Under the pieces are notes generated by a model. That model saw only the letters and a list, made by a program, of their open reading frames with translations, did no database searches and was not told the origin of the DNA. Both the position numbers and the translations under genes were made by a program. Below, in pieces: positions 7,967 through 54,491 of a stretch of 64,000 bases of DNA (position 1 is its first letter; the number at the start of each line of letters is the position of its first letter). Source of the stretch: Hyphococcus luteus (GTDB taxonomy: Bacteria; Pseudomonadota; Alphaproteobacteria; Caulobacterales; Parvularculaceae); assembly GCF_002943565.1 (NCBI RefSeq), contig NZ_PJCH01000006.1, positions 62,001 to 126,000 of the forward strand. The letters run 5' to 3'.

Positions 7967-8025
7967 CTCTTGCCTTCGGACCTGAAAAACAAAGCCAAAC
8001 CGGTCTCGGGAGGAAGATTCACCAC

Positions 8026-9414
8026 ATGAGCGACGCCAATACACCGCCCGCCGTCAATATTGCGGCCTTGATCGACGATGGAGATTGGGCCGGCTACCAG
8101 AAACTCATCGTGGCGCTGGCGGCGCTCGCCTTCATAGTCGACGGACTGGCCAATCACGTGCTTGGCTTGGCGATCCCTGCACTGATTGCCGATTGGGGAG
8201 AGCAGCGCGACGCCTTCGCAAAAGTGGCCGCGCTGAGCATGGCTGGCGTCGGCATCGGCGCGGTGTGCGGCGGCGCTTTAGGCGACCGATTCGGGCGCCG
8301 GTTCGGCCTCATTCTCAGCATTGCCGTCTTCGGCGCAGCGACTCTGGTTGCGACACTGGCAGTGAATACGCACCAGTTAATGTGGATTCGTTTCATTGAC
8401 GGCCTTGCCCTAGGCGCCGCGATTCCCAATGGCGCAGCGCTGGTTTCGGAATTCACGCCGGCGAAACGCCGTCCGATCGCGATTGCTCTCGGCATGGTTT
8501 TTATTCCTGTCGGCGGATTTTTATCGGGCGTGCTCGGGTCTTTCGTCCTGCCTGTGCTCGGATGGAAGGGATTATTTTTAATTGCGGGCGCCCTTTCAAT
8601 GGGCGTCAGCGCGCTTCTCTTCGCCGCGTTGCCGGAATCACCGCGCTTTCTCTCACGATGTAAAGACCGCCGAAAAGAGTTGCTGACTGTTTTAAGACGC
8701 TGCAAATACGAAATTGCAGACGATGCTGAACTGATTGACGAAGAAGCGACGACCGCTTCCGCTTCGGTCAAAGAGCTCTTCGGCGCCGGCATCCGGCGCG
8801 ACACGCTGGCCCTCTGGATTGCCTTTTTCTTCTGCCTGCTTGGCGCTTATGCGGTCTTCAGCTGGGTTCCCACCATGCTTTCCGAGCGTGGATTTAACTT
8901 GGCCCAGACCAGCGCCGGCATGACCGCCTACAATCTTGGCGGCTGCATTGGGGGCGTCTTTTCCGGGTGGATCATTATCTCGATAGGCACACGGAACATA
9001 AGCTATATTATCGGCGTTGGCGGCGTCTTGAGCGCGCTCCTGCTCGCCATTCTCCCGCTCGATCCCAGGGCAGGCCTTCTTGTTCCTGCAATCGCGCTTG
9101 TCGTTATGGGCGTGTTTTCCGCAGGCCTGCACAACCTGGTCTACACGCTTGCGGCGACAATTTATCCGCCTACGGTTAAAGCGACGGGTGTCGGCGCCGC
9201 CGCTGGTCTTGGCCGCCTCGGCGCGGTCGCAAGCTCTTTCGCCGGAACGATCGCCCTCACTGCTGGCGGATCGACGGGGTATTTCGTCCTGATCGCCGTC
9301 TCAACGATGATCTCCGTCACTGCAGCGGCCTTCGTATCACGCCAAATTCCGCCTAATCGCGAACCTGGCGGGACGCCGCTCTTTGCAAAGACGCCCGCTC
9401 TCGAACGGAATTGA
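8026..9414 (+). CDS. MFS transporter, aromatic acid:H+ symporter (AAHS/PcaK-like) family
   Basis: 462 residues with about 12 hydrophobic segments. The loop 2-3 motif GDRFGRRFG and the LPESPRFL motif after TM6 are characteristic of the sugar/aromatic-acid porter group, and the overall pattern fits the AAHS family (PcaK, BenK, MhpT-like). The frame extends upstream to 7801, but the ATG at 8026 begins a normal N-terminus and has GGGAGGA about 12 bases upstream. It is the first gene of a plus-strand operon; the next gene starts 4 bases after its stop. The inferred job is inner-membrane uptake of an aromatic acid or related carboxylate. The specific substrate is not readable. Confidence 0.87.
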
Positions 9415-9418
9415 TCCG

Positions 9419-10951
9419 ATGGGCAGGCTGGATGGAAAAACAGCGCTGATCACCGGCATCGCCAGCGGCCAGGGACGCGCTGCAGCGCTGCTCTTTGCAA
9501 AGGAAGGCGCGCGCGTTTTCGGCTGCGATATCGATCAGGCCGGCGCAGATAAAACCGTCGATCTCGCCCGCGAGGCGGGATGCGAAATCAACTCAGCCGC
9601 GCCTGTCGATCTTTCTATCGAGAAAGAAGCGGCCGCATGGGTCAAGGAAACGGCAAAACGCGCCGGACGCATCGACATTCTTTACAACAATGCCTCGCAT
9701 GGCCGCGTCGGCCCTTTTCCCTCAATGCGGACGGAGACATGGAATTTCACTATCCGCAATGAGCTAGACCTCATCTTTTTCGTTACCCAGGCGGCCTGGC
9801 CTTATCTGATGAAAAACGGCGGCTCGATCATCAACACCGGCTCGATCATCGCACGCCGCGGCAATGACATGCCCATGTCCGCCCATGGCGCCGCGAAGGC
9901 CGGCGTGCATGCGCTCACCGTTCATATGGCGCTCGAGGGCGGCCCCTTCGGCATTCGGGTCAATACAATCAGCCCCGGCCTCATCCGCGCAGGCGGCCTC
10001 GGCGAAATGATGGATGACCCGTTCACCAATCTGCACAAACAGATTGAAACTTCGCCGCTCGGACGCGTCGGCGAACCGGAAGACGTCGCGCCGCTCGCCG
10101 TTTTCCTTGCCTCTGACGAGGCCTCTTACATCACCGGGACGGAAGTCGTCGTCGACGGCGGACAGTCTCTGGGGCTTGGCATGTCGTTTGAAAAACCGCA
10201 ACCGGTGGATCTCAGCGGCGGCGAAAAAATTCTCATCGACACGGGAGATGGGGAAGCGGATGCTTTTCTGTTTTTGCCGAAAAACAAAAATCAAAGCCCC
10301 GGCGTCATTCTTTATACAGATATTATGGGCGTGCGCCCCGCATTCAAGCGCATGGCGGAACGGCTCGCAAACGCCGGTTTTGCAGTTCTCCTTCCAAATC
10401 TGTTTTATCGCGTCGCCGAACCGTTCAATCCTCCGCTATCCGTACACCGCTCCGTCGATTTCGGACGCCTCCTCAATATCGCCAGCACCCTGAACCGGGA
10501 CCTGCTAGAGCGCGACGCCGGCGCTTATATCGGTGCGCTGCGCGCGCATTCCGGCGTCAAAAACACCGCGCTTGGATGCGTCGGCTATTGCATGAGCGGC
10601 GCCATGGCGATGTGGACCGCCGCCGCCTATCCCGCCGAAATCGGCGCGGTTGCAAGTTTTCATGGAGGCCATCTGTCCACGGATGCGCCTGACAGTCCGG
10701 ACCGCCTTGTTGCGGAGAAAAAACCCAAAGCAACTTTTTATTTCGGTTGCGCCGAAACGGACCCGTTCATGAAGCCGGAGGCGATCACATCCCTTAAAGA
10801 GCGGCTCGCCGCAGCAGGCTTGGAAGCGGAAACTGAAATCTATGATGGGACATATCATGGATTCGCGATCGAAGACGCTTCTTATGACAAGGCGGCGAGC
10901 GAACATCACTGGTCGCGTCTTGTCGATTTTCTGAAGAACGCAATCGGCTGA
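9419..10951 (+). CDS. Fused short-chain dehydrogenase/reductase - dienelactone hydrolase
   Basis: A 510-residue two-domain protein. Residues 1-255 form an SDR: the cofactor motif T-G-I-A-S-G-Q-G at 12-19, N-N-A-S at 90-93, Ser142 and Lys160. The catalytic Tyr position is His156 (S-A-H-G-A-A-K), so the usual Y-x-x-x-K is broken. Residues 265-510 form a dienelactone-hydrolase domain with nucleophile Cys391 in G-Y-C-M-S-G, Asp448 and His480 in Y-H-G-F, a complete C-D-H triad. DLH enzymes open dienelactones in ring-cleavage pathways. The single frame spans both domains without interruption, so this is a real fusion. The ATG at 9419 lies 4 bases after the MFS stop. The first domain may be a binding or non-canonical dehydrogenase module. 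Confidence 0.9.
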
Positions 10952-10969: not shown

Positions 10970-12064
10970 ATGACGCAGAACAAGAAGCTGAAACTCGGGG
11001 TCTTCGCATTCAATCTTGACGGCGGTTTTACAGCGACGACTGCGCCTGAGCGGTATCAACTTTCATGGGACAATGTGCTCGATGTGGCGCGCGCCGCCGA
11101 CGAAGGCGGCCTCGATGCGCTTATTCCGCTCGGACGCTGGAAAGGACTCGGCGGAAAAACGGATTTTCAGGGTAAAAACTATGAAACCCTGACATGGGCG
11201 GCGGGGCTGGCCGCCTCGACAAAACGCATCAATGTCTTTGCGACGGTCCATGCGCCGGTCATCCACCCAATCGTCGCCGCCAAACAATGCGCCACCATCG
11301 ATCACATTTCCGGCGGGCGTTTCGGCCTCAATGTCGTTTGCGGGTGGAACCCGGCTGAGTTCGCCATGTTTGGCTCTCCGGTGATGAGCGCGGACGCCCG
11401 CTACGACTATGCGCGCGAATGGGTGGAGATCGTGCGGCGCCTGTGGACGGAAGAGAAACCATTCGATTTTGAGGGCGCCTATTTCAAGGCGGCGGGAGCA
11501 ATTTCAAAACCGCTTCCGATCGCGCGTCCGCATCCGCCGATCATGAACGCCGGCCGCTCGCCGGACGGCATGCGCTTCGCCGCGCAATACGCCGATCTAG
11601 CCTTTCAGGATGTTCTTGAAAAAGACTTCGACGAAACCCGGTCCCGCGTCGCCGAACTCCGCCGCATTGGACGCGAGGAGTTCGGCCGAGAATTCGAAGT
11701 CTGGACAAGCGCCTGGATCATATGCCGGCCCACGACAAAGGAAGCGAATGAATTTTATCGTCACGCCATTCATGATTACGGCGATTTCGACGCGCTGAAA
11801 GGCTTGCCGCCTTCTCTCATTCCGTCACCGGAAACCACGCCGCCGGAAATCCTTAAAGAGATTCAACACCGCGCCCTCGCCGGTTTCGGCGGCGCGCATA
11901 TGATCGGCTCGCCCGAGGAGATCGCCGAGAAGCTCAAAGCGTTCTCTGACGCAGGCTTCGACGGAACCGTGATGACCTTCATTGACTATCAGCGGGATGT
12001 GCGCGGCTTCATCAAGGATGTCCTGCCGCTGCTTGAACAGGCGGGTCTCCGCCAACCCGCATAG
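10970..12064 (+). CDS. LLM-class flavin-dependent oxidoreductase (bacterial luciferase-like monooxygenase)
   Basis: 364 residues with the TIM-barrel pattern of reduced-flavin monooxygenases: an N-terminal KLGVFAFNLDGG strand, the segment around ISGGRFGLNVVCGWNPAEF, and a C-terminal GSPEEIAEKLKAFSDAGFDG repeat typical of the family. Relatives include SsuD, RutA and the alkane or dibenzothiophene-sulfone monooxygenases. They need FMNH2 from a separate reductase; the only candidate in the window is at 33497-34141. It follows the SDR-DLH gene by 18 bases and ends the MFS/SDR-DLH/LLM operon; the convergent aldo/keto reductase gene ends 4 bases further on. Substrate unknown; a ring-opening or heteroatom oxygenation step is possible. 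Confidence 0.85.
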   Translation: MTQNKKLKLGVFAFNLDGGFTATTAPERYQLSWDNVLDVARAADEGGLDALIPLGRWKGLGGKTDFQGKNYETLTWAAGLAASTKRINVFATVHAPVIHPIVAAKQCATIDHISGGRFGLNVVCGWNPAEFAMFGSPVMSADARYDYAREWVEIVRRLWTEEKPFDFEGAYFKAAGAISKPLPIARPHPPIMNAGRSPDGMRFAAQYADLAFQDVLEKDFDETRSRVAELRRIGREEFGREFEVWTSAWIICRPTTKEANEFYRHAIHDYGDFDALKGLPPSLIPSPETTPPEILKEIQHRALAGFGGAHMIGSPEEIAEKLKAFSDAGFDGTVMTFIDYQRDVRGFIKDVLPLLEQAGLRQPA

Positions 12065-22136: not shown

Positions 22137-23180
22137 TCAATCCGCCGAGGACTGTTCTTCCGCTATGAGTTTAGACAGCATTCTGCGCACGGCGATCGGC
22201 GCCGCATCCGTTCGTAACAGGAGACGATCGAGTTCCTCATTGGAATCGCTCGTCAATAGAACCTGCTGTTGAGCTTCAATCATCGGCTCATCCTGCGTGC
22301 GGAAGGCCGTATCGAGCATGTTGAGGAGCGCCTCGTCCACTTTCGGATCGTCAAGCTTTACATTGCGCGCTTGGGCGAAGAAATAATGGCTGGTTGTTTC
22401 CGTTTCAGGCGTAATCGCGTGAACTGCAGGGATGCAAAGACCGGTCTCTTCCGGTTCGCCCGTGCGCACGGCGCCGAGATCGAAATTCAACAGGGATGGC
22501 GGAAACCATTGCATATGCGAGCGCGAATCCATGCGTTCATCATCGAAGCCGAATATATTGCGCGTGGGTCCGTTTGGGGGCTGGGCCCGGCGGATCCTTT
22601 TTGCAGTAATGCTTCGCTCGTCGCGCACCAGTTCAGCCTCGGTCCCCCGAAGGCGAGCTTCCGTGGACATGCCCGGCACGACAAAATCAGGATGCAGATA
22701 GGCGGCGTGACTTAGGTCGAGAAGGTTGTCGACAATAAGCTGGTAGTTCGCCTCCACGCGCAGATACCCGGAAACGGTCGAATAATCCGAACGTGTTAGA
22801 AACCCGAAATCGGGCAGCAACGACTCGTCCGCATTTTCCGGCGCTCCCGGCCAGATCCAGATGAATCCGTATTTTTCTATCGCAGGAAAACTGCGCACCT
22901 GCGCTGCGCGCGGAATTTCATCGTAGTGCGGATTATAGACGCAAGCGCCGTCCGGCGAGAATTTCAGCCCGTGATAGGGACACTCGATATTGTCGCCATG
23001 GGCCGCGCCTCTCGAAAGCGGCGCACAGCGATGGGGGCAGCGGTCGTGAAGCGCCGCGGGAGAACCGTCTGTCTTTCGATAAATCGCCACCGGCGCGCCG
23101 AGCAGCATTCTACCGAAAGGCTTGTCCTCAACTTCCGAGGAATAGGCCGCCGCATACCAGCAATTCTTGAGAAAGGTCAC
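22137..23180 (-). CDS. Rieske non-haem iron oxygenase, VanA-like (aromatic O-demethylase family)
   Basis: 347 residues. The Rieske [2Fe-2S] ligands are Cys48, His50, Cys67 and His70 (C-P-H-R-C and C-P-Y-H-G). The mononuclear iron site is in D-N-L-L-D-L-S-H-A-A-Y-L-H. The short length, N-terminal F-L-K-N-C-W-Y-A-A-A and P-x-P-type Rieske layout match vanillate O-demethylase oxygenase and related monooxygenases of the same subgroup. The start is a GTG at 23180. It needs electrons from a reductase; none is adjacent, but a ferredoxin gene is at 38777. It leads an operon with the VOC and NTF2-like genes, with an operator-like element about 40 bases upstream. Confidence 0.9.
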   Translation of the reverse strand: MTFLKNCWYAAAYSSEVEDKPFGRMLLGAPVAIYRKTDGSPAALHDRCPHRCAPLSRGAAHGDNIECPYHGLKFSPDGACVYNPHYDEIPRAAQVRSFPAIEKYGFIWIWPGAPENADESLLPDFGFLTRSDYSTVSGYLRVEANYQLIVDNLLDLSHAAYLHPDFVVPGMSTEARLRGTEAELVRDERSITAKRIRRAQPPNGPTRNIFGFDDERMDSRSHMQWFPPSLLNFDLGAVRTGEPEETGLCIPAVHAITPETETTSHYFFAQARNVKLDDPKVDEALLNMLDTAFRTQDEPMIEAQQQVLLTSDSNEELDRLLLRTDAAPIAVRRMLSKLIAEEQSSAD

Positions 23181-26994: not shown

Positions 26995-28263
26995 TCAGGC
27001 GGCGCTTGAAATGTCGGCGCGAAATTCATTCGGCAGCGGCAATTCTTTTTTCCACTCAGATGTTTTGGGGAATGTGAAGGTTTCGGCTGTCACTTGCGAC
27101 CAGTCGATATGCGCAGTAGCTGCTTTCGGCTTTTCGCCTTCCTGCAGCGCCGCCGCCGCGCGCATCACCGCCCGCCGCCAGGCGACGACCGCCATATCCG
27201 ACCGGCCAAGATGTTCTTTGGTGCGATCAAGAATCGGCCCCTGCGTTTCGCTAACCGCATGGTCCTGAGTAACGACGCCCACAATGCCCGAGAGATTTTC
27301 AGTTTTCATCATGTCCCGGTCCTGTTTATACCAGTTGTCCTTATTAACAAGCTTGCGGAAGTTCTCGTCGTGCCAGTGCCCACCCTCTTCATTGCGATGC
27401 TCGCGGTCGATTTTATACTTCTCGTCAAAAAACCACTGAATGTGCCAGGTCGAATAGTCGTCGCGCGGCACAAAGGCGTTGACTAGCCGCCGTTCGCGCC
27501 GGAATTCAGGGGCATTCCCGCCATCGGGCGGGATGAAAGTCCAGAATGGCAGCACCACCTGCGTCACCCGCGCATGAGACATCTCCTCATTCAGCGATCT
27601 GACGGCGCAATAACGCAAACCGTAATTCGTCATTTCCACTTCGAGCTTCGGCCGGAGATCTTTTTCGTGCGGATATTTTGCTTCATGGGTCCAAGGACTT
27701 GAGCGGTGCAGCACGCCCGCATGCGCGGAGTCGACCGTTCCTTCCACCGCCTGGGCGTAATTGCAGTCTTCCATCAACTTGAAAGGTTCGGCATGCCCTT
27801 CTTCCATGGACAACCAGGGAAACTCGGGAAAGACCGGCTTTTCCTCCGCCGGCCCCATATAGGTCCAGACCATCCCGCCGGCGACATGCACCGGATAGGA
27901 TGTCACGCGCATGCGCTTCGCCAATCCCGATCCCTCCGGCTCCGTTGGCGTGTCGACGCATTGTCCGTTCACGTCGAATTTCCAGCCGTGATAGAGACAG
28001 CGCAGCCCGCATTCTTCATTAACCGCAAGCGCGAGCGACGCCCGCCGATGGGGGCAGTGTTCGTCGAGCAGACCGATCCGCCCTTCAGTGTCGCGAAACG
28101 CCACCAGGTTTTCCCCGAGCAGCCGGACCCGAACCGGCTTGCCGTCCCTTTCAGGAAGTTCGCTTTCGAGGAGCGCCGGCAGCCAGAAGCGGCGCATCAG
28201 TTCTCCCATGGGCGTGCCGGGGCCAACGCGCACCAGAAGCTCGTTTTCTTCGCGTGAAAGCAT
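26995..28263 (-). CDS. Rieske aromatic-ring-hydroxylating oxygenase, phthalate 4,5-dioxygenase-like
   Basis: 422 residues. Rieske ligands are Cys70, His72, Cys89 and His92 (C-P-H-R and C-L-Y-H-G-W). The mononuclear iron motif appears as E-G-T-V-D-S-A-H-A-G-V-L-H. The N-terminal start (L-S-R-E-E-N-E-L-L-V-R-V-G-P-G-T-P-M) and G-x-L-M-R-R-F-W-x-P match the phthalate 4,5-dioxygenase group, which uses a separate reductase. Members act on phthalate, chlorobenzoate and various non-phthalate aromatics. No reductase gene is adjacent. Operon with the amidohydrolase at 26191. An operator-like element overlaps its promoter and that of the divergent small gene. Confidence 0.9.
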   Translation of the reverse strand: MLSREENELLVRVGPGTPMGELMRRFWLPALLESELPERDGKPVRVRLLGENLVAFRDTEGRIGLLDEHCPHRRASLALAVNEECGLRCLYHGWKFDVNGQCVDTPTEPEGSGLAKRMRVTSYPVHVAGGMVWTYMGPAEEKPVFPEFPWLSMEEGHAEPFKLMEDCNYAQAVEGTVDSAHAGVLHRSSPWTHEAKYPHEKDLRPKLEVEMTNYGLRYCAVRSLNEEMSHARVTQVVLPFWTFIPPDGGNAPEFRRERRLVNAFVPRDDYSTWHIQWFFDEKYKIDREHRNEEGGHWHDENFRKLVNKDNWYKQDRDMMKTENLSGIVGVVTQDHAVSETQGPILDRTKEHLGRSDMAVVAWRRAVMRAAAALQEGEKPKAATAHIDWSQVTAETFTFPKTSEWKKELPLPNEFRADISSAA

Positions 28264-39497: not shown

Positions 39498-40355
<858 letters not shown>

Positions 40356-41081: not shown

Positions 41082-42746
41082 ATGTCGCTGATGTTTGTCA
41101 AAGGAGTACATGGCGGGGGCCATCTCTATCTTTCTTTCGCCGCGCTGTTCCTGCTTGCCGCAGCAAGTTGCAGCCAACCGCAAGAGCCTCCCGAGCAAGA
41201 TCTCGCATCTGCCGACCCCATAGGCGTCACTACACACGGTCATGTGGAAGGCGTGCGCGAAAGCCCGCTTTCGATTTTTCTCGGCATTCCGTTCGCAGCC
41301 CCGCCGGTCGACGACTTGCGCTGGCGCCCGCCCGAACCGCCGGAAAACTGGGACGGCTTGCGCGAAGCTAAAAGTTTTGCGCCCAGCTGTTACCAAAACG
41401 CCCAATATCTGGAAGCGCCCGAACACAATACGAGCGAGGACTGTCTTTATCTTAATATATGGACGCCAGCGGCATCCGCCGATGAAAGGCTGCCTGTCAT
41501 GGCCTGGATTTATGGCGGCGGCTTTGCGGCCGGCGCAACGTCAAATCCCGTGCAGAATGGCGATGAACTTGCTGCGCGCGGCGTTGTTGTCGTATCCATG
41601 GGCTATCGCGTCGGTCCATTCGGCTTTCTCGCTCATCCCGCTTTAAGCGCGGAGTCTCCGCAAGAAGTCTCCGGCAATTACGGTCTGCTCGATCAGATCG
41701 CAGCACTGAAATGGGTGCAGGACAATATCGAGAATTTCGGCGGAGATCCGGACAAAGTGACGATTTTCGGCGAATCCGCCGGCGCGATTTCGGTTTCCAT
41801 GCTTTCAACCTCCCCCCTCGCGGAAGGGCTTTTCCGCGGCGCGATTTCTCAAAGCGGCGGCTCTTTCGGCCCCACACATTCACCGCCCCTTCCCGGAGAA
41901 AATGTCCAGCGCCTCGACCAGGCCGAAGCCATCGGTATCGAATTTGCCGAGAAACTGAATGCGGCGGATATCGCTGAAATGCGCACGGTGCCTGCGGCGG
42001 ATATCCTTGCTGCGTCGTTGCCCTCACCCGACGCCCCGTTTCCAGAAATGCGGCTCAGCTGGCCAGTTCTCGACGGCTATGTCATTCTAGGCGACCAATA
42101 CGAGCTCTACGAACAAGGCGAATATAACGATGTCGCCGCGCTGATCGGCTTCAACTCCGACGAAGCTTCAATGTGGGGCGGCCAGGTGACGCCAGCTGAA
42201 TATGAAAAGGCGACTCGCGACCGTTTTGGCCCTTATGCCGAAACGCTGCTCGAGGCCTACGCCGCCGAACCCGACGACGCCACGCAGGCCTCCCGCGACC
42301 TTGCAACCGACGTCATGTTCGGCTGGCACACGCTTTCCTGGGCGAAACTCCAAAGCCGCACCGGGACGAAACCCATTTACATGTATTATTTCGCGCAACG
42401 CCCGCCCTACCCGGAAGATCATCCGTTCGCCAACGTAAAAGGCGCTCCTCACGCTGCGGAAATGCCTTATGTCTTCGATCATCTCGAGGTCTATCCGGAG
42501 ATTCCCTGGCGTCCGGAGGACGCCGCGCTTTCCGACGCAATGGCCGATTATTGGACAAACTTCGTCAAGACTCTCGATCCCAACGACGGCGAGCTGCCTC
42601 ATTGGCCGCAATTCTCCGAAAATGAGCCCCAGGTGATGATTCTTGAAAACGGCCCTCATGCCGGCGCGCTGCCCTCCTATGAACGCTACGATATCCTCGA
42701 CGACTATTTCGCCTGGCGCCGCACGCCCGAAGGCCGCCAGCCCTGA
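41082..42746 (+). CDS. Carboxylesterase type B, predicted lipoprotein
   Basis: 554 residues. The N-terminus has a hydrophobic segment ending L-L-A-A-A-S-C, a plausible lipobox with Cys30. The catalytic Ser232 is in G-E-S-A-G-A, the oxyanion G-G-G-F is near residue 146, an acidic residue is in N-S-D-E-A, and a candidate His is in K-G-A-P-H-A-A-E. This is the alpha/beta-hydrolase family that includes tannases/feruloyl esterase-like and phthalate-ester hydrolases. It lies 30 bases after ligK. A surface or periplasmic esterase could release the aromatic acid that LigAB ultimately cleaves. Confidence 0.88.
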   Translation: MSLMFVKGVHGGGHLYLSFAALFLLAAASCSQPQEPPEQDLASADPIGVTTHGHVEGVRESPLSIFLGIPFAAPPVDDLRWRPPEPPENWDGLREAKSFAPSCYQNAQYLEAPEHNTSEDCLYLNIWTPAASADERLPVMAWIYGGGFAAGATSNPVQNGDELAARGVVVVSMGYRVGPFGFLAHPALSAESPQEVSGNYGLLDQIAALKWVQDNIENFGGDPDKVTIFGESAGAISVSMLSTSPLAEGLFRGAISQSGGSFGPTHSPPLPGENVQRLDQAEAIGIEFAEKLNAADIAEMRTVPAADILAASLPSPDAPFPEMRLSWPVLDGYVILGDQYELYEQGEYNDVAALIGFNSDEASMWGGQVTPAEYEKATRDRFGPYAETLLEAYAAEPDDATQASRDLATDVMFGWHTLSWAKLQSRTGTKPIYMYYFAQRPPYPEDHPFANVKGAPHAAEMPYVFDHLEVYPEIPWRPEDAALSDAMADYWTNFVKTLDPNDGELPHWPQFSENEPQVMILENGPHAGALPSYERYDILDDYFAWRRTPEGRQP

Positions 42747-42877: not shown

Positions 42878-45754
42878 TTAGAACGCCTTGCTGATCTGGA
42901 TGGAGAGAACCCGTCCCAGCGGACTGTTGCGGGAATTGTCGTATTGCAATCCCGGGAAGTTCGCTCCGCCCGTTGCATTCAACACAAGCGGCGGATCGGA
43001 GTCGAATACATTCTCAACGGAGAAAGTCATATCGAGCCCGTTGAGCAGTCCCGTCGCATCCGGTGAATAGGTGATGCTGAAATCCAGAGTCGCAAAGGCG
43101 TCTATGTCCAGATACTCGTCCGGCGCCGCAGCTGGAATGAAACGGCGTTCGATATGATAGGCGTTGGCGAAATTCAGATAGAGAGAGGTCTGAACCTCTC
43201 CAAGATCGGCCGTCACTTCGCCGCGCGCGGCGAATTTTAACGGGCCGCCGAAGTAATTCACACGGTCTTCGATGGGCGCTCCGGGGGCGATCGCTTCATC
43301 ATATTTGAGCACATAAGTCGCAACCGCGCCCACGGTCCAGTCAATATTCTGCGCTGCAAAGTTATAGTACGCAGTAAAGTCAAGACCGCTTGTTTTGACC
43401 ACGCCGATATTGTTCCGGCGGGCGTCGATGATGGCAATTGTGCCGCCCGGTCCGGGCGACGGCGCAGGCCCGATAGTCAGACGATCAACCGTATCGTAAG
43501 GAGAGAAAGCCGGCTGGGCCGTTCCGTTGTTGAGGGCGTCTATGAGCGCATCGAACTCCGCTTGGGACAAAGTCGACGTAGAAAAGGCGCCCGGATTCAA
43601 AAAGACAAAGGGAGAAAGCGACGGCGTGTTGAGCGCCGCAAGCGGCCCCACATTGAAAGCGGGGTAGTCGATCTTGCCTGTGTAATCGATACGATAATAG
43701 TTCATCGAAAGCGTCAGGCCGTCGACATCGGACGGCGTCCACTCGAAACCGGCAGAATAGGTCTTGGCTTTTTCAGGCCCAAGCGTTCCGTTGCCGCCAA
43801 TGATGTAGGTCGGCGTCGTAAAACCGGGCGCGCCCATATATCCAAGCGAGGGATCGATGAGCATGGTGTCGATAGGAAATCTCGTATATGTGCCGGCTTG
43901 CGCGTTCGGGTTATTAGACGAGAGCACAGGCGCGCGAAACGACTTGCCGAAGCTGGCGTGGATGACAAAGTCTTCAAACGGCTCCCAGTTGACGCCGAAT
44001 TTCGGATTTAGAGAGTCGCCAAAGTCGCTATAGTTTTCATAGCGGCCCGCCGCGGTCAGCTCGAGACTGACAATGCCCGGCATCGAATTGGCGTCGCCGA
44101 CAAGCGGGACATATAGTTCGCCGAACGCGGCCGAGACATTGCGGCCGTTAAGCGAATGCACGCCCTCCGTCACAACCTGACTGGCGCCGGAAATGTTGAA
44201 CGAGTCGAATCTGTCCCGATAGTGCTCGCCGCCGATCGCAAGTCTGACATCGCCGCCGGTGATCGAGAAGAGAGGACCGGTGAAACTTCCCGACACCATT
44301 TTGCGTTTGAACCAGTAATTGGTCGTGCTCCATGAGTCGAGATAATCGAGCGTCGCCTGATCATTGCATCCCGGCGTGCCGTCGCAAAACGGGTTGAAGG
44401 CGGGAATGGCGCCGAAGTCCCCTGCCAGAACATTGGGAAGAGTGCCGCGGGCAGTGCCGCCATCATCCGTTCTGACGCTGTTCTTCGCTTTGCCGTAGCT
44501 GAAGTAAACATCACCCGTCCAGTCCGGCATAGGAAGGTCAAACCGGAAACCGGCCGTGCCGTTCCAGGTCTGCTCATAACCGTCGCGCAAGTGCGGACCG
44601 AGGTCGCCAAAGAAATTATACTGAACGGTGACCGGATCGGGACAAGTGATTCCATTAGCCGATCCGCCGTTGTTGCACGGGTGGTAAGGGTTCGTCACGG
44701 GAACGACGAGCGGTCCTGCCAAGGTGTCATAGGGGGTTTGCCGGATCGTAATATTGCGGCGATAAAATATGCCGTCGCCGTAAAGCTCAAACCCGGGCGC
44801 CAGCTCTTGATTGAACTTTGCGACAAAGCTGTTGGAATCGATCGCCGGCAATGCATCGGTATTCGTCCAGCGTGATTGCGTATTCGGCGACGCCAAAAGA
44901 TCGGACAGAGTCAGCGTCGTCGACGAGCCCGCAGGAATGCCCATGTAGCCCGACGGCGTCAGGATATTGCCCGGCGCGGTGGCGAGCGATAGTCCGTCCC
45001 CGCCATATTCCGAGAAATCGTCATTATAAAGTTTTGGCCGGTCAGACGCGGCGAGCGCTTCGCGATCGATGTGCTCATAGGCGACCATGATCCCGCCAGT
45101 GTCCCAAGTCTTGCCGAGCATCACCGCGGCTTTCCAGTCCATGTGGTCGTCCGCGAATCCTACGCGGCCCGAAACCTGCGCGCCGTCAAAAGGTTCGCGC
45201 ATAATATAGTTCATCACGCCGGTAACAGCGTCCGAACCATATATGGCGGAGGCGCCGTCGGCGACGATCTGAATTTGCGACAGGGCGATTGACGGCACCG
45301 TGTCCGGTTCGAAGATGTCGCTGTTGGGGCCGACCGCCGGCGTGCGGTGGCCGTTCACAAGACTCAATGTCGCCGCAGTGCCAAGACCGCGAAGGTTGGG
45401 GCTGTTGGCGTAAGAAACGTTAACAACGTCGCCTTGAAAGCCGGCGCCGCCCGCACGCCCTTCATTGCCCCCGAATGAGAGCACTTGTGGAACTTTGCGC
45501 AAAAGGTCCGCAGTGCTGGAATAGCGGCTCTTTGCGATGTCATCGCCGCCGACAGTAAGAACTTCCGAGCCGACCGGGTCGATGCCTTGGATGCGGGTCC
45601 CCGTCACCGTCACTACGTCCCGGTTCTCGTCGCTTTCGTCGTCCTGAGCGTAGACTGGCGTTAAAGCAATTATCGAAACCGCCGATGCCGATCCCAATAA
45701 CAAAGATAGCCGGCGCTGCGAACGCAGCGTCCTGTAATGATTTGAGCCTTGCAT
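42878..45754 (-). CDS. TonB-dependent outer-membrane receptor 2
   Basis: 958 residues, closely parallel to receptor 1: the plug starts with V-T-V-T-G-T-R-I-Q-G-I-D-P-V-G-S, then S-T-A-D-L-L-R-K-V-P-Q-V-L-S-F-G-G, and the barrel ends I-S-K-A-F. A signal peptide (about residues 1-37) ends near Y-A-Q. A purine-rich GGGAGGGATCAGGAA precedes the ATG. Conserved plug motifs such as A-D-G-A-S-A-I-Y-G-S-D-A are present. Together with receptor 1 it flanks the GntR-type region. Probably imports a related but different ligand. Confidence 0.93.
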   Translation of the reverse strand: MQGSNHYRTLRSQRRLSLLLGSASAVSIIALTPVYAQDDESDENRDVVTVTGTRIQGIDPVGSEVLTVGGDDIAKSRYSSTADLLRKVPQVLSFGGNEGRAGGAGFQGDVVNVSYANSPNLRGLGTAATLSLVNGHRTPAVGPNSDIFEPDTVPSIALSQIQIVADGASAIYGSDAVTGVMNYIMREPFDGAQVSGRVGFADDHMDWKAAVMLGKTWDTGGIMVAYEHIDREALAASDRPKLYNDDFSEYGGDGLSLATAPGNILTPSGYMGIPAGSSTTLTLSDLLASPNTQSRWTNTDALPAIDSNSFVAKFNQELAPGFELYGDGIFYRRNITIRQTPYDTLAGPLVVPVTNPYHPCNNGGSANGITCPDPVTVQYNFFGDLGPHLRDGYEQTWNGTAGFRFDLPMPDWTGDVYFSYGKAKNSVRTDDGGTARGTLPNVLAGDFGAIPAFNPFCDGTPGCNDQATLDYLDSWSTTNYWFKRKMVSGSFTGPLFSITGGDVRLAIGGEHYRDRFDSFNISGASQVVTEGVHSLNGRNVSAAFGELYVPLVGDANSMPGIVSLELTAAGRYENYSDFGDSLNPKFGVNWEPFEDFVIHASFGKSFRAPVLSSNNPNAQAGTYTRFPIDTMLIDPSLGYMGAPGFTTPTYIIGGNGTLGPEKAKTYSAGFEWTPSDVDGLTLSMNYYRIDYTGKIDYPAFNVGPLAALNTPSLSPFVFLNPGAFSTSTLSQAEFDALIDALNNGTAQPAFSPYDTVDRLTIGPAPSPGPGGTIAIIDARRNNIGVVKTSGLDFTAYYNFAAQNIDWTVGAVATYVLKYDEAIAPGAPIEDRVNYFGGPLKFAARGEVTADLGEVQTSLYLNFANAYHIERRFIPAAAPDEYLDIDAFATLDFSITYSPDATGLLNGLDMTFSVENVFDSDPPLVLNATGGANFPGLQYDNSRNSPLGRVLSIQISKAF

Positions 45755-46016: not shown

Positions 46017-46760
46017 ATGTCTGCGACCATGAACGCCTCCACAAAAACAACGCGAACCAGTCGGCGAAAAAAAACCACCAAAAAACCCTCCGTGAAGAAG
46101 CCCCGTGCGAAACGATCGAGGCAGGAACTGATCGCGGATGCTGTTATTGAGGTGCTTGGTCGCGCCGGCGCCCGCGGTCTTACCCATCGTGAAATAGACC
46201 GTTTTTTGCGCCTGCCCGACGGTTCGACATCTTATTATTTCCGCCGCAAGGACGATCTGATCGCCGCCGGCCTTGAACGGTTGAACGCACTAACGCTCGA
46301 ACGGCATCGAAAACGCTACGAGACCGTCTTCCAAAAGGCCGCCTCAAAAAAACAGGTCAAACTTAGCGATTTTGCGGAAACAGAATTCGAAACATATAAG
46401 CAATATATTAGCTCGCCTCCGCTCTATCGAAATCTTGCGCGGGTCGAGTTTTTCATCATGGCGATTCGCGACAAGTCGCTGATGGAAGCACAGCGCCGAA
46501 CAATGCAGCCTATATTCGATCTCGATGAAAAAATGTTCCGTCTGTTGGGAGCTAAAAATCCGCGTCACGCGGCCGCCGAGTATGGCGATTTCAGGCGCGG
46601 CAGCTTCATGACGTTTGTGCTCGTGCCCAACGCCGTTTTCGGCCGCGACCGCACTATCGAATACTATGAAAATGTAATCCGTAAGATCATCGCAGATACC
46701 GACAAGATGCAAGAAGACCTGCCGCTCGATGCAAATATAATAAAAACGATCGCCTCTTGA
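46017..46760 (+). CDS. TetR-family transcriptional regulator 1
   Basis: 247 residues. A Lys/Arg-rich N-terminal tail of about 30 residues (T-T-K-K-P-S-V-K-K-P-R) precedes the helix-turn-helix, where G-L-T-H-R-E-I-D-R-F-L-R-L-P and S-T-S-Y-Y-F-R-R-K-D-D-L are recognisable. The C-terminal ligand domain is unremarkable. It heads the sulfatase operon (next gene 60 bases on) and is divergent from TonB receptor 2, so it may regulate one or both. Confidence 0.87.
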   Translation: MSATMNASTKTTRTSRRKKTTKKPSVKKPRAKRSRQELIADAVIEVLGRAGARGLTHREIDRFLRLPDGSTSYYFRRKDDLIAAGLERLNALTLERHRKRYETVFQKAASKKQVKLSDFAETEFETYKQYISSPPLYRNLARVEFFIMAIRDKSLMEAQRRTMQPIFDLDEKMFRLLGAKNPRHAAAEYGDFRRGSFMTFVLVPNAVFGRDRTIEYYENVIRKIIADTDKMQEDLPLDANIIKTIAS

Positions 46761-46819
46761 CCGCGCCCCGATTCTCTACAAAAGTAGAGGAACGAAAAAA
46801 ATCGACGGGAGGGCGCAAG

Positions 46820-48208
46820 ATGCCAAGATGGGACCGCCGCAAGGTCTTGAATGTTGCGGCTGCAACCGCCGCCACGACTTCTTTTGCTCCGTTTGGCGCA
46901 TCCGCGGGTTCCAAACAAGACAAACCGAACATCCTGTTCATCATGGCCGACGATCTCGGTTATGCGGATTTGAGTTGTTATGGCCGCAGGGATTTCGAAA
47001 CGCCAGTATTAGACGCCTTAGCCGAAGACGGATTGCGTCTCACGGACTGCTACTCGAACTCGCCGGTATGTTCGGCAACGCGCCTTGCGCTCATTACAGG
47101 CAGATACCAATATCGGCTTCCTTTCGGACTGGAAGAACCCAGCCCGGGAAAGTCCGGCGCAGGATTGCCCGCAGATCATCCAACGCTTCCTTCGCTGCTT
47201 CGCGATGCTGGATATCGCACTACGCTCATCGGGAAATGGCATCTGGGATCGCCGCCGGACTATGGACCACTGAAAAGCGGCTATGACAGATTTTACGGCG
47301 TCTATGGAGGAGGCGATTATTTTCAGCACGCGCCGGAAACGGCGTCGCGCAACGACGGCGTTCTAACGGATCAGGATGAACCGTCCTTGGACGAGGGATA
47401 CATGACCGATCTTCTCGCCGATCGGGCCGTTCTGGAAATAGAAACCGCCCATAAGCACCGCAAGCCGTTTTTCATCAGCCTGCATTTCACGGCGCCGCAC
47501 TGGCCCTGGGAAGGGCCCGATGACGAAGAAGTATCGGAAAATCTCTCAAACCTTTTCCATTTCGATGGCGGCAGCATCGCCACATACGCCCGTATGGTTA
47601 AAAACCTCGATGCTAATATTGGCCGGGTCCTGCAATCATTGCGCAAGGCGGGGCTGCATCGCGATACGATCGTGGTCTTCACAAGCGACAATGGCGGCGA
47701 ACGTTTTTCCGATTCATGGCCTTTTGTCGGCGTCAAAGGAGAGGTGCTGGAAGGCGGCATCCGCGTGCCGGGTCTTATCCGCTGGCCGGGACGAATAAAA
47801 AAGGAAAGCGTTTCAGACCAGATCGTCACGTCAATGGACTGGATGCCGGTATTGCTGTCCGCTGCGGACGCGTCTCCCGATCCGGCATACCCGCCGGACG
47901 GCGTCAATCTATTGCCTGAGTTTCAGAACGGGTCGACCCGCTCGCGAAAGCTCTACTGGCGTTTTAAGGCGAACGATCAGGCCGCTCTGCGATCAGACAA
48001 CTGGAAATATCTCAGCATCGGCGGCGCCGAACATTTGTTTAATCTGAAGGAAGACGAGCGTGAGCGCGCAGACCTCAAGGAACGAAATCTCGATATCTTC
48101 GCCAGCCTCAAAGCCGACTACGAAGCCTGGAACGAAACGATGCTGCCCTATGAAGCTTCAACCTTCAGTCATGATGTGACGATGGGCAATTACAGCGACA
48201 GATACTAA
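46820..48208 (+). CDS. Tat-exported sulfatase 1
   Basis: 462 residues. N-terminal D-R-R-K-V-L-N-V is a Tat-like signal with an Ala-rich core ending near residue 30. Metal Asp44-Asp45 sit in M-A-D-D-L-G-Y. The formylglycine site is Cys84 in C-S-A-T-R, so Ala replaces the usual Pro of C-x-P-x-R, a variant that is tolerated in some sulfatases. Downstream I-T-G-R-Y-Q-Y-R-L and I-G-K-W-H-L are typical. The ATG at 46820 has GGGAGGG upstream. It hydrolyses a sulfate ester, aryl or carbohydrate. The next sulfatase overlaps its stop. Confidence 0.9.
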   Translation: MPRWDRRKVLNVAAATAATTSFAPFGASAGSKQDKPNILFIMADDLGYADLSCYGRRDFETPVLDALAEDGLRLTDCYSNSPVCSATRLALITGRYQYRLPFGLEEPSPGKSGAGLPADHPTLPSLLRDAGYRTTLIGKWHLGSPPDYGPLKSGYDRFYGVYGGGDYFQHAPETASRNDGVLTDQDEPSLDEGYMTDLLADRAVLEIETAHKHRKPFFISLHFTAPHWPWEGPDDEEVSENLSNLFHFDGGSIATYARMVKNLDANIGRVLQSLRKAGLHRDTIVVFTSDNGGERFSDSWPFVGVKGEVLEGGIRVPGLIRWPGRIKKESVSDQIVTSMDWMPVLLSAADASPDPAYPPDGVNLLPEFQNGSTRSRKLYWRFKANDQAALRSDNWKYLSIGGAEHLFNLKEDERERADLKERNLDIFASLKADYEAWNETMLPYEASTFSHDVTMGNYSDRY

Positions 48209-48219
48209 TGGAGTTTAGC

Positions 48220-49617
48220 ATGCATAACTGGAACCGACGCGCCGTACTCGCCGGCGGCGCTGCGATCGGGGCGGCTTCGATCAGCCCCGCCGCAAACGCC
48301 AAACAACAAGGCGGAGAAAAGCCGAATATTCTATTCATCATGGCTGACGATCTCGGTTACGCTGACCTGAGCTGTTACGGCAGAACGGATTTCGAAACGC
48401 CGGCGATCGATGCGCTGGCATCGGACGGCCTGCAGCTTATGCAGACCTACGCGAACTCTGCGGTGTGTTCGGCCACGAGGACCGCTCTTATTACGGGACG
48501 TTACCAGTATCGCCTTCCATTCGGGCTGCAAGAGCCGGGAGGACGCAATCTGGGGCTTCCGCCCGATCATCCGACGCTTCCGTCTCTCCTGAAAAAGTCC
48601 GGTTACAAAACTGCGCTTATCGGAAAATGGCATATGGGAGCGCCGCCTGAATACGGCCCGCTCAAAAGCGGCTATGACAGTTTTTACGGCATATATGGCG
48701 GGGGTACGGATTATTTCAGGCACTCCCCGGACAACACCGTAAGTGAAAACTACGCCGAACAAACTGTGCTGATCGACCAGGACGCGCCTGCGTTGGATGA
48801 AGGCTACCTTACGGACTTGCTCGCCGACCGTGCGATCAACATCATAGAAGACTCAGCGAAGTCGGACACGCCGTTTTTCGTCAGTCTCCACTTCACTTCC
48901 CCGCACTGGCCTTGGATCGGCCCGAATGATGAACAAGTTTCGGAAACACTGACCGATTTGAATCATGAAGATGGCGGAAATATCCGCATCTTCGCATCCA
49001 TGGTCAAAAGCATGGACGCAAACATCGAAAGAGTCCTGCACGCATTGAAGCGCGCCGGCCTCGATCAAAACACCATCGTCGTATTCACCAGCGACAATGG
49101 CGGCGAGCGTTATTCAGATGTCTGGCCGTTTGTCGGCGTCAAAGGCGAACTTCTGGAGGGCGGGATACGCGTGCCGGGGATCGTTCGCTGGCCGGGTCAC
49201 ATCAAGAAAAACCGGCGCTCTGAACAGGTTATCACGTCGATGGACTGGATGCCCACCCTGCTCGCCGCGGCGGGCGCGCAACAAGATCCTGGCTTTCCTT
49301 CCGACGGCGAGAATCTCCTCGACCAACTCACCGGGCAAGCGCCAGCCGTCGAGCGCAAACTGTGTTGGCGGTTCAAGGCGAACGAACAATCCGCGATCCG
49401 CGATGGAGACTGGAAATATCTAAAAATCGGCGGTTTCGAACATCTGTTCAACCTTGCGGAAGATGAGCGCGAGCGGGCCGATCTGAAAGACAAAGAACCC
49501 GAACGCTTCGCGCAACTGAAGACTGCGTATCAAGAATGGGATGCAACGATGCTTCCTTATCCGGAAGACAGCTACAGCCATGATGTCAAAAAGGGAAATT
49601 ATTCCGATCGTTATTAG
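48220..49617 (+). CDS. Tat-exported sulfatase 2
   Basis: 465 residues, a close paralogue of the preceding gene along its whole length. Tat signal W-N-R-R-A-V-L-A-G-G, metal site M-A-D-D-L-G-Y, Cys83 in C-S-A-T-R, and both proteins end N-Y-S-D-R-Y. An ATG at 48208 overlaps the previous stop (TAATG), but the ATG at 48220 has GGAG 6 bases upstream and starts the Tat signal properly. Tandem duplication of an exported sulfatase suggests two related sulfated substrates or positions. Confidence 0.9.
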   Translation: MHNWNRRAVLAGGAAIGAASISPAANAKQQGGEKPNILFIMADDLGYADLSCYGRTDFETPAIDALASDGLQLMQTYANSAVCSATRTALITGRYQYRLPFGLQEPGGRNLGLPPDHPTLPSLLKKSGYKTALIGKWHMGAPPEYGPLKSGYDSFYGIYGGGTDYFRHSPDNTVSENYAEQTVLIDQDAPALDEGYLTDLLADRAINIIEDSAKSDTPFFVSLHFTSPHWPWIGPNDEQVSETLTDLNHEDGGNIRIFASMVKSMDANIERVLHALKRAGLDQNTIVVFTSDNGGERYSDVWPFVGVKGELLEGGIRVPGIVRWPGHIKKNRRSEQVITSMDWMPTLLAAAGAQQDPGFPSDGENLLDQLTGQAPAVERKLCWRFKANEQSAIRDGDWKYLKIGGFEHLFNLAEDERERADLKDKEPERFAQLKTAYQEWDATMLPYPEDSYSHDVKKGNYSDRY

Positions 49618-52959: not shown

Positions 52960-53823
52960 TTATCTTTCCCCTCCGCCAAACTTATCGTCTATATCGCGCC
53001 ACTTCGACAATTCGAATAATTCAGTCAGCTCGGCAAAATTCTTTGTCCCTTCGGGCAGTTCAAGTGTTCCTTGACGCAGATCGTCAAGAGCATCACAGAC
53101 AGTTTTTACAACCCGCAGCAACAAGGTGCCGGGATAAACAATAATAGAAAAGCCCATATCTTTCAGATCCTTGGGGGGAAGGATCGGCGTCCGCCCGGCT
53201 TCGGCCATATTGGCGAATTGAATGCAATCGATTTCGCCGCCGACGCGTTTGAGCTCTTCAACGCTTTGCGGAGCTTCAACAATCACGGCGTCAACGCCAA
53301 CATCAGCGAACCGGCGCGCACGCGTAATCGCATCATCAAGTCCCGTTACAGACCGCGCATCCGTTCGGCCCACAATAAAGAAATCCGAGCTGCGGCGCGC
53401 CGCAAGCGCAGCTTCCAGCTTTCTTGTCGCCACGTCCAAGGGAACAACGGACTTCCCATCCATATGCCCACAGCGCTTTGGGTTGGTCTGATCTTCCAGA
53501 ACCAGTCCGGCGACGCCCATAGCTTCATAGCTCTGCACCGTTCTTGTAACGTTTTTCACGTCTCCATAACCATCATCGCCATCGACTATGACTGGAAGCG
53601 AGGAGCCCCCCATAATGTCGCACACGCCATTAACGAACTCGCCAAAACTCAGGACGCCGACATCAGGCAGCGCATGCCTAACCCCTGCCAAAGCGAATCC
53701 GCCAATGCTGTAGACGTGAAATCCTGCTTTCTCAATCAACCGTGCCGAAAGCGCGTCATGAGCGATAGGAACGATAAGCGGATCTTCAACTTTCAACGCT
53801 TCATGTATTGTTCGGTCCGGCAT
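52960..53823 (-). CDS. Isocitrate lyase/PEP mutase-superfamily C-C lyase (methylisocitrate/dimethylmalate lyase-like)
   Basis: 287 residues. D-G-D-D-G-Y-G-D at 81-88 and the loop P-K-R-C-G-H-M-D-G-K with catalytic Cys118 mark a true lyase rather than a PEP mutase or hydrolase. Glu110-Asp111 precede it as metal ligands. Characterised relatives cleave methylisocitrate to pyruvate and succinate, or 2,3-dimethylmalate to pyruvate and propionate. The gene sits 2 bases after a LeuD-like gene, so the LeuCD-type hydratase probably makes its hydroxy-diacid substrate. Which diacid is not readable. Confidence 0.86.
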   Translation of the reverse strand: MPDRTIHEALKVEDPLIVPIAHDALSARLIEKAGFHVYSIGGFALAGVRHALPDVGVLSFGEFVNGVCDIMGGSSLPVIVDGDDGYGDVKNVTRTVQSYEAMGVAGLVLEDQTNPKRCGHMDGKSVVPLDVATRKLEAALAARRSSDFFIVGRTDARSVTGLDDAITRARRFADVGVDAVIVEAPQSVEELKRVGGEIDCIQFANMAEAGRTPILPPKDLKDMGFSIIVYPGTLLLRVVKTVCDALDDLRQGTLELPEGTKNFAELTELFELSKWRDIDDKFGGGER

Positions 53824-53825
53824 TG

Positions 53826-54491
53826 TTAAACGTCACCCATATTGAAAGAGTCATCATCGATTTTCCGTGGTCCGAAATACGCCCAACTGCGGCGATCACG
53901 ATCCCTGTTCTGAAAAGCGATAATGTCGTCTTTAAAGCGCAAAGTGGCCGCTATCGGGTCAAGCGCGTCAAGCATCGCCTGGCGATAATTTTCAGGCACC
54001 TCGAAAGCATATTCGCATCCTCCCGGGCTCACGACACGGCATTTTTCCAGATCGACGGTCACTTTGCCGGCGCCCTGCGAGGCCTCCACTTCGTCGGAAA
54101 TTCGCTCCACATCGTCTTCAGCGATAACTACCGGAAGGAAACCGTTCTTGAGCGCATTGGAATAGAAAATATTCCCAAAACTGGGCGCAATGACACATCG
54201 AAAGCCGTAATCGCGCAGCGCCCAGACGGCGACTTCGCGTGAGCTGCCACAGGCGAAATTATGTCCCGCAAGCAGAATCTTTGCATGCTGGTAGGGTGCT
54301 TTATTAAGAATAAAATCGGGCTCTTCTTCTCCATTTTCCTTATAGCGCCAGTTATAAAACAGACCCTGTCCAAAACCGCCCTTCGTTACCTTGAGAAGTT
54401 GGGCGCCAGGAATTATCGCATCCGTATCAACATTAAGCCGGCGCAGCGGCGCTGCAATTTCCGTCAATTTCCGAAATGGCTTGCGTTCCAT
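53826..54491 (-). CDS. LeuD-like small subunit of an aconitase-family hydratase
   Basis: 221 residues with N-V-D-T-D-A-I-I-P-G, F-Y-N-W-R-Y and the substrate loop G-H-N-F-A-C-G-S-S-R-E-V-A, typical of isopropylmalate-isomerase small subunits. In LeuD the loop usually reads R-E-H/N-A-P-W; here it is R-E-V-A-V-W, a change near the substrate. No other leucine-biosynthesis gene is nearby. With the adjacent LeuC-like gene it should form a heterodimeric hydratase, e.g. of the dimethylmaleate or citraconate type. The start overlaps the LeuC-like stop by one base (TAATG). Confidence 0.88.
   Translation of the reverse strand: MERKPFRKLTEIAAPLRRLNVDTDAIIPGAQLLKVTKGGFGQGLFYNWRYKENGEEEPDFILNKAPYQHAKILLAGHNFACGSSREVAVWALRDYGFRCVIAPSFGNIFYSNALKNGFLPVVIAEDDVERISDEVEASQGAGKVTVDLEKCRVVSPGGCEYAFEVPENYRQAMLDALDPIAATLRFKDDIIAFQNRDRDRRSWAYFGPRKIDDDSFNMGDV

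Follow-up and report, generated by a model that had tools for sequence, protein, structure and literature searches.

Does an SDR domain that lacks its catalytic tyrosine still carry out a redox step when it is joined to a dienelactone hydrolase (DLH) domain, and is the missing tyrosine a property of the fusion or of the SDR itself? These questions are raised by a gene located in the window, as the whole stretch of 64,000 nucleotides that was analysed is called here. A first-pass annotation of the DNA had described the gene as a single frame consisting of an SDR and a DLH domain, and this description was borne out. One open frame extends on the + strand from 9419 (ATG) to 10951 (stop) and encodes 510 residues. 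Both Pfam scores were far above cut-off: adh_short_C2 matched residues 13-249 with 191.8 bits (cut-off 27), and DLH (PF01738) matched residues 281-507 with 139.9 bits (gathering cut-off 21). The features of the gene are the following.

9419..10951, + strand: SDR-DLH fusion gene, 510 aa, single frame (Pfam adh_short_C2 and DLH; full-length relatives L050, L051 and L052)
9419..10168, + strand: SDR domain, residues 1-250, DitB-type, E115/S142/H156/K160 (Pfam, alignments, codons, AlphaFold model)
9761..9763, + strand: codon of Glu115 (GAG), at the tetrad Asn position of classical SDRs (Glu in 79/80 relatives, best 80 of 334)
9884..9886, + strand: codon of His156 (CAT), at the catalytic Tyr position (His in 78/80 relatives, best 80 of 334)
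10166..10258, + strand: linker, residues 250-280 (pLDDT <50 at residues 250-263; 24-53% identity among the four fusions)
10259..10939, + strand: DLH domain, residues 281-507, triad C391/D448/H480 (Pfam PF01738; triad in 33/33 aligned DLH sequences)

In the AlphaFold model of the fusion (mean pLDDT 85, pTM 0.59) two well-predicted domains are connected by the flexible or low-confidence linker. The pLDDT of the SDR domain is mostly above 90, with values of 60-75 at residues 191-220, and His156 and Lys160 belong to the helix of residues 154-177, which follows a strand ending at residue 140. A Foldseek comparison returned SDRs throughout among the 50 of 1999 matches listed, with TM-scores of 0.85-0.94 by target and 31-38% identity.

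Textbooks define SDR catalysis by the tyrosine of YxxxK, and this residue was present in the five solved SDR sequences whose alignments to the family profile were displayed. Direct reading of the codons in the fusion confirmed the earlier statement that Ser142 (TCG, 9842) and Lys160 (AAG, 9896) are in place and that His156 stands where the Tyr is expected. A second replacement, missed at that stage, was found at the position of the tetrad Asn, which is occupied by Glu115. The fusion has the nucleotide-binding motif TGxxxGxG, the NNA motif and the catalytic Ser and Lys of a classical SDR, and it lacks the catalytic Tyr and the tetrad Asn. Since two of the four tetrad residues fail, the SDR half was not filed as a Tyr-type SDR. 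The first-pass annotation had also considered that a nearby Tyr might occupy the site; no alignment places a Tyr there, and the aligned segment contains none that could take the catalytic role.

Relatives of the SDR half were collected by scanning genome contigs with a two-fusion alignment, from which two peptide patterns gave the candidates. The best 80 of the 334 confirmed candidates, comprising three fusions and 77 stand-alone SDRs, were compared. (A pattern search with the single fusion protein gave 72 pattern matches and no relatives.) Among these best 80 of 334, position 156 was His in 78, with Asn in the fusion L052 and Gln in L075; positions 115 and 142 were Glu and Ser in 79 each, the exception being L052 with Ala115 and Thr142, and Lys160 was present in all 80. 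As many of the relatives are near-identical Streptomyces or Pseudomonas sequences, the 78 of 80 do not stand for 78 independent events. The residues G13, G17, G19, N90, N91 and A92 of the window sequence and Asp37 were present in 80/80 of the same set. Asp37, which we take to indicate NAD rather than NADP, suggests that the SDR half uses NAD. Ten further rows with at least 40% identity, eight of them new and distinct, all had Glu115 and His156; L138 is the same gene as L134, and one of the distinct rows, L136, has an in-frame stop.

The conservation of His156, which the first-pass annotation had asked to be looked at, is therefore seen mostly in stand-alone SDRs. A sequencing or frame error at residue 156 was rejected because the same His occurs in other, independent genomes, including those of the two other alphaproteobacterial fusions. 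The idea that His arose as a consequence of the fusion was rejected as well, since the stand-alone relatives share it.

Six paralogues from the same genome, with at most 39% identity, had Tyr at position 156 in five cases and Phe in one. Their residue 115 was Asn in L004, L006 and L008, Asp in L005 and L007 and Gly in L003. The last of these (C12:621439-622197) is another SDR without the Tyr, with Phe156 and Thr142 in addition to Gly115. L075 from Actinacidiphila oryziradicis (8001-8756) is an E/H-type SDR carrying Gln at 156 instead of His. A tree was calculated from 46 of the 97 sequences; near-duplicates made up most of the remainder, to which the Phe-type paralogue L003, L136 and L138 also belonged. 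L095 was taken as the same record as L010 (G407:C140). The Glu/His clade was set apart from the five Tyr paralogues with support 98/97, in a tree whose long branches were flagged by the program and in which the placement of single rows is unsure. A remote SDR, L029 (32% identity, pairwise alignment), has Glu115 together with Tyr156, so that Glu alone is no marker of the group and is not strictly tied to His.

In this analysis a DitB-type E/H subfamily was defined by Glu115, His156, Lys160 and a common clade, all of which were found for the fusion. Judged by these residues and by the tree, the SDR half belongs to this subfamily, with Glu-Ser-His-Lys for Asn-Ser-Tyr-Lys, and His156 is not a mutation but the characteristic residue of related enzymes that are widespread and have received little study. 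Among the open-literature papers listed, no title or abstract opening described SDRs with His for Tyr (HxxxK), and our searches met no member of the E/H subfamily whose activity has been measured. A 2016 comparison of more than 500 SDRs gives, in the accessible part of the paper, only four besides isopiperitenone reductase with a changed catalytic Tyr (PMC4988499). A conserved subfamily in which both Asn and Tyr are replaced, and which is partly located in resin-acid degradation clusters, is a test case for a substitute of the Tyr. If the group is active, it would be a mistake to annotate members of the E/H subfamily as inactive SDRs for want of the Tyr. The interest moves from a single unusual fusion to a whole conserved subfamily in which the catalytic tyrosine has been replaced and which was joined to a hydrolase on one occasion.

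The surroundings of the stand-alone SDRs and of the fusions L050, L051 and L052 were searched with query proteins from Massilia, Pseudomonas and Sphingomonas, so that dissimilar enzymes of the same function would be missed in the counts; some contigs end near the SDR. At the 44 proteobacterial loci a ferredoxin gene preceded the SDR in 39, an extradiol dioxygenase of the VOC kind followed directly in 41, and FAH-family and Rieske oxygenase genes were present within the stretch in 38 and 8, respectively. Other neighbours were an IclR regulator, MFS, a thiolase with an OB-fold protein, a second SDR and, at some of the loci, Rieske alpha/beta genes. These neighbours match the dit genes enumerated in the accessible part of PMC12628601 (ditA3 ferredoxin, ditB dehydrogenase/reductase, ditC cleavage dioxygenase, ditD, ditE, ditR, ditF, ditG, ditH, ditA1/A2), with the SDR in the ditB position. 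One of the loci, L085, is that of P. xenovorans LB400, for which the accessible text of PMC10710418 describes a dit cluster established by knockouts. According to the accessible text of a 2026 paper (PMC13063091), a direct link to steps exists for DitQ and DitA only, and most dit genes are functionally uncharacterized; nothing on DitB was found in the accessible parts of PMC6891630 and PMC3570484. The name DitB-type was chosen because of gene order, not because of a match to a named DitB sequence.

A VOC dioxygenase was found beside the SDR in none of the 33 actinobacterial stand-alone loci, and the ferredoxin, VOC-type extradiol dioxygenase, FAH and Rieske alpha/beta genes were found in none of the three fusion loci searched. 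The dit-like neighbours are thus not a feature of the whole subfamily, and since no such dioxygenase was found adjacent at the 33 actinobacterial loci, the subfamily seems wider than resin-acid degradation. A search at E 1e-15, covering up to 8 kb on either side of the SDR, detected no DLH homologue at any of the 77 loci with a stand-alone SDR.

The search for the same architecture in other genomes, another check proposed at the outset, yielded three further fusions, all full-length matches: L050 from a marine alphaproteobacterial MAG (62% identity over the fusion length), L051 from a Hyphomonadaceae MAG (60%) and L052 from Streptomyces iakyrus (49%). When 200 genomes of the order were searched with the DLH half, 37 had a match and one other fusion was obtained (G512), with which L051 was taken to be the same record (also L041). 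G460 was rejected as a further fusion; its DLH lies in a 543-aa frame, and the adjoining SDR is in another frame and of the Tyr type. The remaining DLH matches of this search had frames of at most 387 aa, too short for both domains. No other full-length match was found in 61 other genomes of the family, in 59 genomes of the family of G512, or in 386 genomes of the class and 397 of the phylum (three best candidates scored per genome, overlapping draws). None of 30 matching plasmid records covered 80% of the fusion query. Relatives of the SDR half were themselves uncommon in the order (6/200 genomes at E 1e-45), and among the open-literature papers listed no title or abstract opening described an SDR-DLH fusion. 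By these searches the fusion is real but rare.

In the tree the SDR halves of the four fusions formed one clade (support 98/97). The three alphaproteobacterial fusions have kept E115 and H156 as well as the nucleotide-binding motif, Asp37, Ser142 and Lys160. In all six pairs of fusions the SDR half was more conserved than the DLH half (65-76% versus 57-67% identity among the alphaproteobacterial ones), which argues against a decaying passenger.

The DLH half had been described as possessing a complete Cys391-Asp448-His480 triad. This was verified by reading the codons (TGC 10589, GAC 10760 and CAT 10856) and by alignment, in which all 33 DLH sequences had the Cys-Asp-His triad. Asp301 was likewise present in 33/33, at what is presumably the position of Glu36 in classical DLH. 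The sole NCBIfam match of this half, YghX hydrolase, was far below threshold (59.9 bits, cut-off 460). An unfused SDR was found within the 1.5-kb flanks of two of 29 stand-alone DLH loci (L029 and L039); when three longer stretches were checked, one of them, L042, had an SDR adjoining the DLH. In L039 and L042, which come from the same order of bacteria, a Tyr-type SDR with Gln at 115 lies beside the DLH, with about 77-88 bases between the aligned parts. Because unfused pairs of this type occur elsewhere in the order, SDR plus DLH is, as far as gene positions tell, a recurring though uncommon partnership drawn from different SDR branches.

The following genes of the window were found to have homologues near the other fusions.

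10970..12064, + strand: LLM flavin monooxygenase (Pfam Bac_luciferase), directly downstream of the fusion; L050 and L051 have a homologue at this place too
8026..9414, + strand: MFS transporter, ending 4 bases before the fusion ATG (start codon 8026 chosen); in L051 a homologue lies about 4 kb away from the fusion
41082..42746, + strand: carboxylesterase, 30 kb from the fusion here; a homologue immediately follows the LLM gene in L051 and lies about 6.5 kb away from the fusion in L050
3423..6293, - strand: TonB-dependent receptor, so named by the appearance of its sequence; in L050 a homologue lies 1.8 kb away from the fusion

The LLM gene starts 18 bases after the fusion in the window and about 2 bases after it in L051, and in L050 it overlaps the fusion end; the products are 56% (L051) and 54% (L050) identical to the LLM of the window. 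Judged by these positions, the gene order fusion-LLM is conserved in three alphaproteobacteria. No family match assigned the downstream LLM to Baeyer-Villiger-type chemistry. Relatives of the LLM on plasmids were inspected in 7 of 82 records, five of them annotated. A Caballeronia plasmid has SDR and DLH genes within 6 kb of the LLM relative, and on a Variovorax plasmid an SDR and an isochorismatase-type hydrolase gene directly follow the LLM; three of the five annotated loci have no SDR-hydrolase pair.

Some other genes of the window were recorded. At 52960-55900 isocitrate lyase/PEP mutase-like, LeuD-like and LeuC-like genes stand in a row. Their homologues are the third to fifth genes after the LLM gene on the plasmid of Variovorax sp. 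RA8 (L139), which suggests a shared pathway; the genes are reminiscent of those for dimethylmalate lyase and dimethylmaleate hydratase, two enzymes of nicotinate degradation. The gene at 39501-40355 encodes a class III extradiol dioxygenase beta subunit of the protocatechuate 4,5-dioxygenase kind (NF009903, 480.6 bits, cut-off 317) and is followed by a gene that is RraA-like by sequence appearance. Weak, below-cut-off matches to Rieske oxygenase families were seen at 22137-23180 and 26995-28263. Two adjacent genes at 46757-49617 are sulfatase-like in appearance and lie near a TonB-receptor-like gene (42878-45754).

The S. iakyrus copy differs from the other fusions. The fusion (8001-9584 in L052) is followed by a 52-aa LLM fragment (9726-9881; E 8e-10 in a 3.5-kb search), so the fusion-LLM pair was probably once present there too. 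In this fusion the DLH triad is intact, yet residues 115, 142 and 156 are Ala, Thr and Asn. Because E115, S142 and H156 are missing, the redox step may be dispensable in the S. iakyrus protein; the cassette may be decaying, or only the hydrolysis may be needed. The alphaproteobacterial copies with intact E/H and the Streptomyces copy without it, both with the hydrolase triad, form a natural pair for comparison.

The reading that we favour, and hold tentatively, is that the fusion is a bifunctional enzyme, an NAD-dependent dehydrogenase and a cysteine lactone/ester hydrolase, which would cooperate with the LLM oxygenase as part of a short catabolic cassette. The cassette would consist of the MFS transporter, the SDR-DLH fusion and the LLM flavin monooxygenase, with esterases and a TonB receptor in the region. 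The SDR half would act as an NAD(H)-dependent dehydrogenase with a Glu115-Ser142-His156-Lys160 active site. His156, poised by Lys160 and Glu115, would take the proton of the substrate hydroxyl while the hydride passes to NAD+; the proton could be transferred directly or, as His is shorter than Tyr, possibly through a water. In the DLH half, an alpha/beta hydrolase, Cys391-His480-Asp448 would be used to open a lactone or an ester. The LLM would most likely act between the two, and we infer the following order: a putative alcohol substrate would be oxidized to the ketone by the SDR, the LLM would insert oxygen or open the ring oxidatively, and the lactone or ester would be hydrolysed by the DLH. 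It is possible, if doubtful, that a broad bacterial SDR subfamily, including the dehydrogenases of dit clusters, uses Glu-Ser-His-Lys, with His for proton transfer and Glu for the tetrad Asn, and that in one branch a single fusion to a cysteine lactone hydrolase took place, which would let one protein cover the first and last steps around the LLM oxygenation. Coupled redox and lactone hydrolysis had been proposed in the first-pass annotation because of the fusion and the changed active site. The coupling is plausible and fits the neighbourhood, with the LLM directly downstream in the three alphaproteobacterial fusions; the changed active site is not peculiar to the fusion, since stand-alone SDRs carry His156.

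With the Tyr gone, the SDR half might not oxidize alcohols but catalyse another reaction, for instance a non-redox step or the reduction of a conjugated double bond. The Asn and the Tyr are both changed at the same time, and in isopiperitenone reductase of mint Glu at the Tyr position goes with ene reduction (PMC4988499, accessible text). This precedent, however, has Glu and not His, and the proteobacterial stand-alone relatives occupy the ditB position, flanked by genes for a ferredoxin and a ring-cleavage dioxygenase, at a place where dihydrodiol oxidation is expected; we consider other chemistry rather unlikely. The grouping with DitB-type enzymes would also agree with a dit-like function, in which the SDR would rearomatise a cis-dihydrodiol and the DLH would split the lactone or ester to which cleavage of the ring of this compound gives rise, and the window does contain the extradiol dioxygenase beta subunit and the two weak Rieske matches. 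The fusions, however, form a clade outside the proteobacterial dit group in the tree, the constant partner is the LLM monooxygenase, and no dit neighbour was found at the three fusion loci searched, which makes this function unlikely for the fusion.

A catalytically dead SDR half, serving as scaffold or ligand-binding domain for the hydrolase, corresponds to the structural or sensor role of the first-pass annotation. The absence of the canonical Tyr and the altered S. iakyrus fusion with its intact DLH triad would agree with it, and for S. iakyrus such a role may hold. For the alphaproteobacterial fusions, which keep the motif, Asp37 and the E/H tetrad, it is not supported: E115, S142, H156 and K160 are conserved in both Proteobacteria and Actinomycetota, mostly in stand-alone enzymes, and the SDR half is the better conserved one. 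As a general explanation a dead SDR is quite improbable. A chance fusion or an assembly artefact might be suspected from the rarity of full-length matches in the family, class and phylum genomes, but this was refuted by the same architecture, with an LLM gene or fragment downstream, in three further, separately assembled genomes, and its probability is negligible. The preferred reading remains a dehydrogenase and a hydrolase in one protein.

Compared with known systems, the SDR half shares the fold and the nucleotide-binding motif with classical SDRs such as 7-alpha-hydroxysteroid dehydrogenase and FabG, but has Glu-Ser-His-Lys where these have the tetrad Asn-Ser-Tyr-Lys. The DLH half has the domain score and the Cys-Asp-His triad in common with the dienelactone hydrolase family, whereas its best solved relative is weak (3f67, E 1.4e-11). 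The best solved and family matches of the downstream LLM are monooxygenases of the RutA/SfnG type; as it scores 161 bits for RutA (cut-off 498) and 182 bits for SfnG (cut-off 383), it belongs to neither. Isopiperitenone reductase of mint shows that the catalytic Tyr can be replaced in nature (PMC4988499, accessible part), but it is a plant enzyme with Glu at this position and does not represent a broad bacterial subfamily, whereas the fusion has His. A close parallel is offered by DitB of the dit cluster for abietane diterpenoids (resin acids) in Pseudomonas and Paraburkholderia: the enzymes in the ditB position are about 44-51% identical to the SDR half and share E115, S142, H156 and K160 with it. 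DitB is a stand-alone protein encoded beside a ferredoxin and a ring-cleavage dioxygenase, whereas the fusion carries a DLH domain and is encoded beside an LLM monooxygenase.
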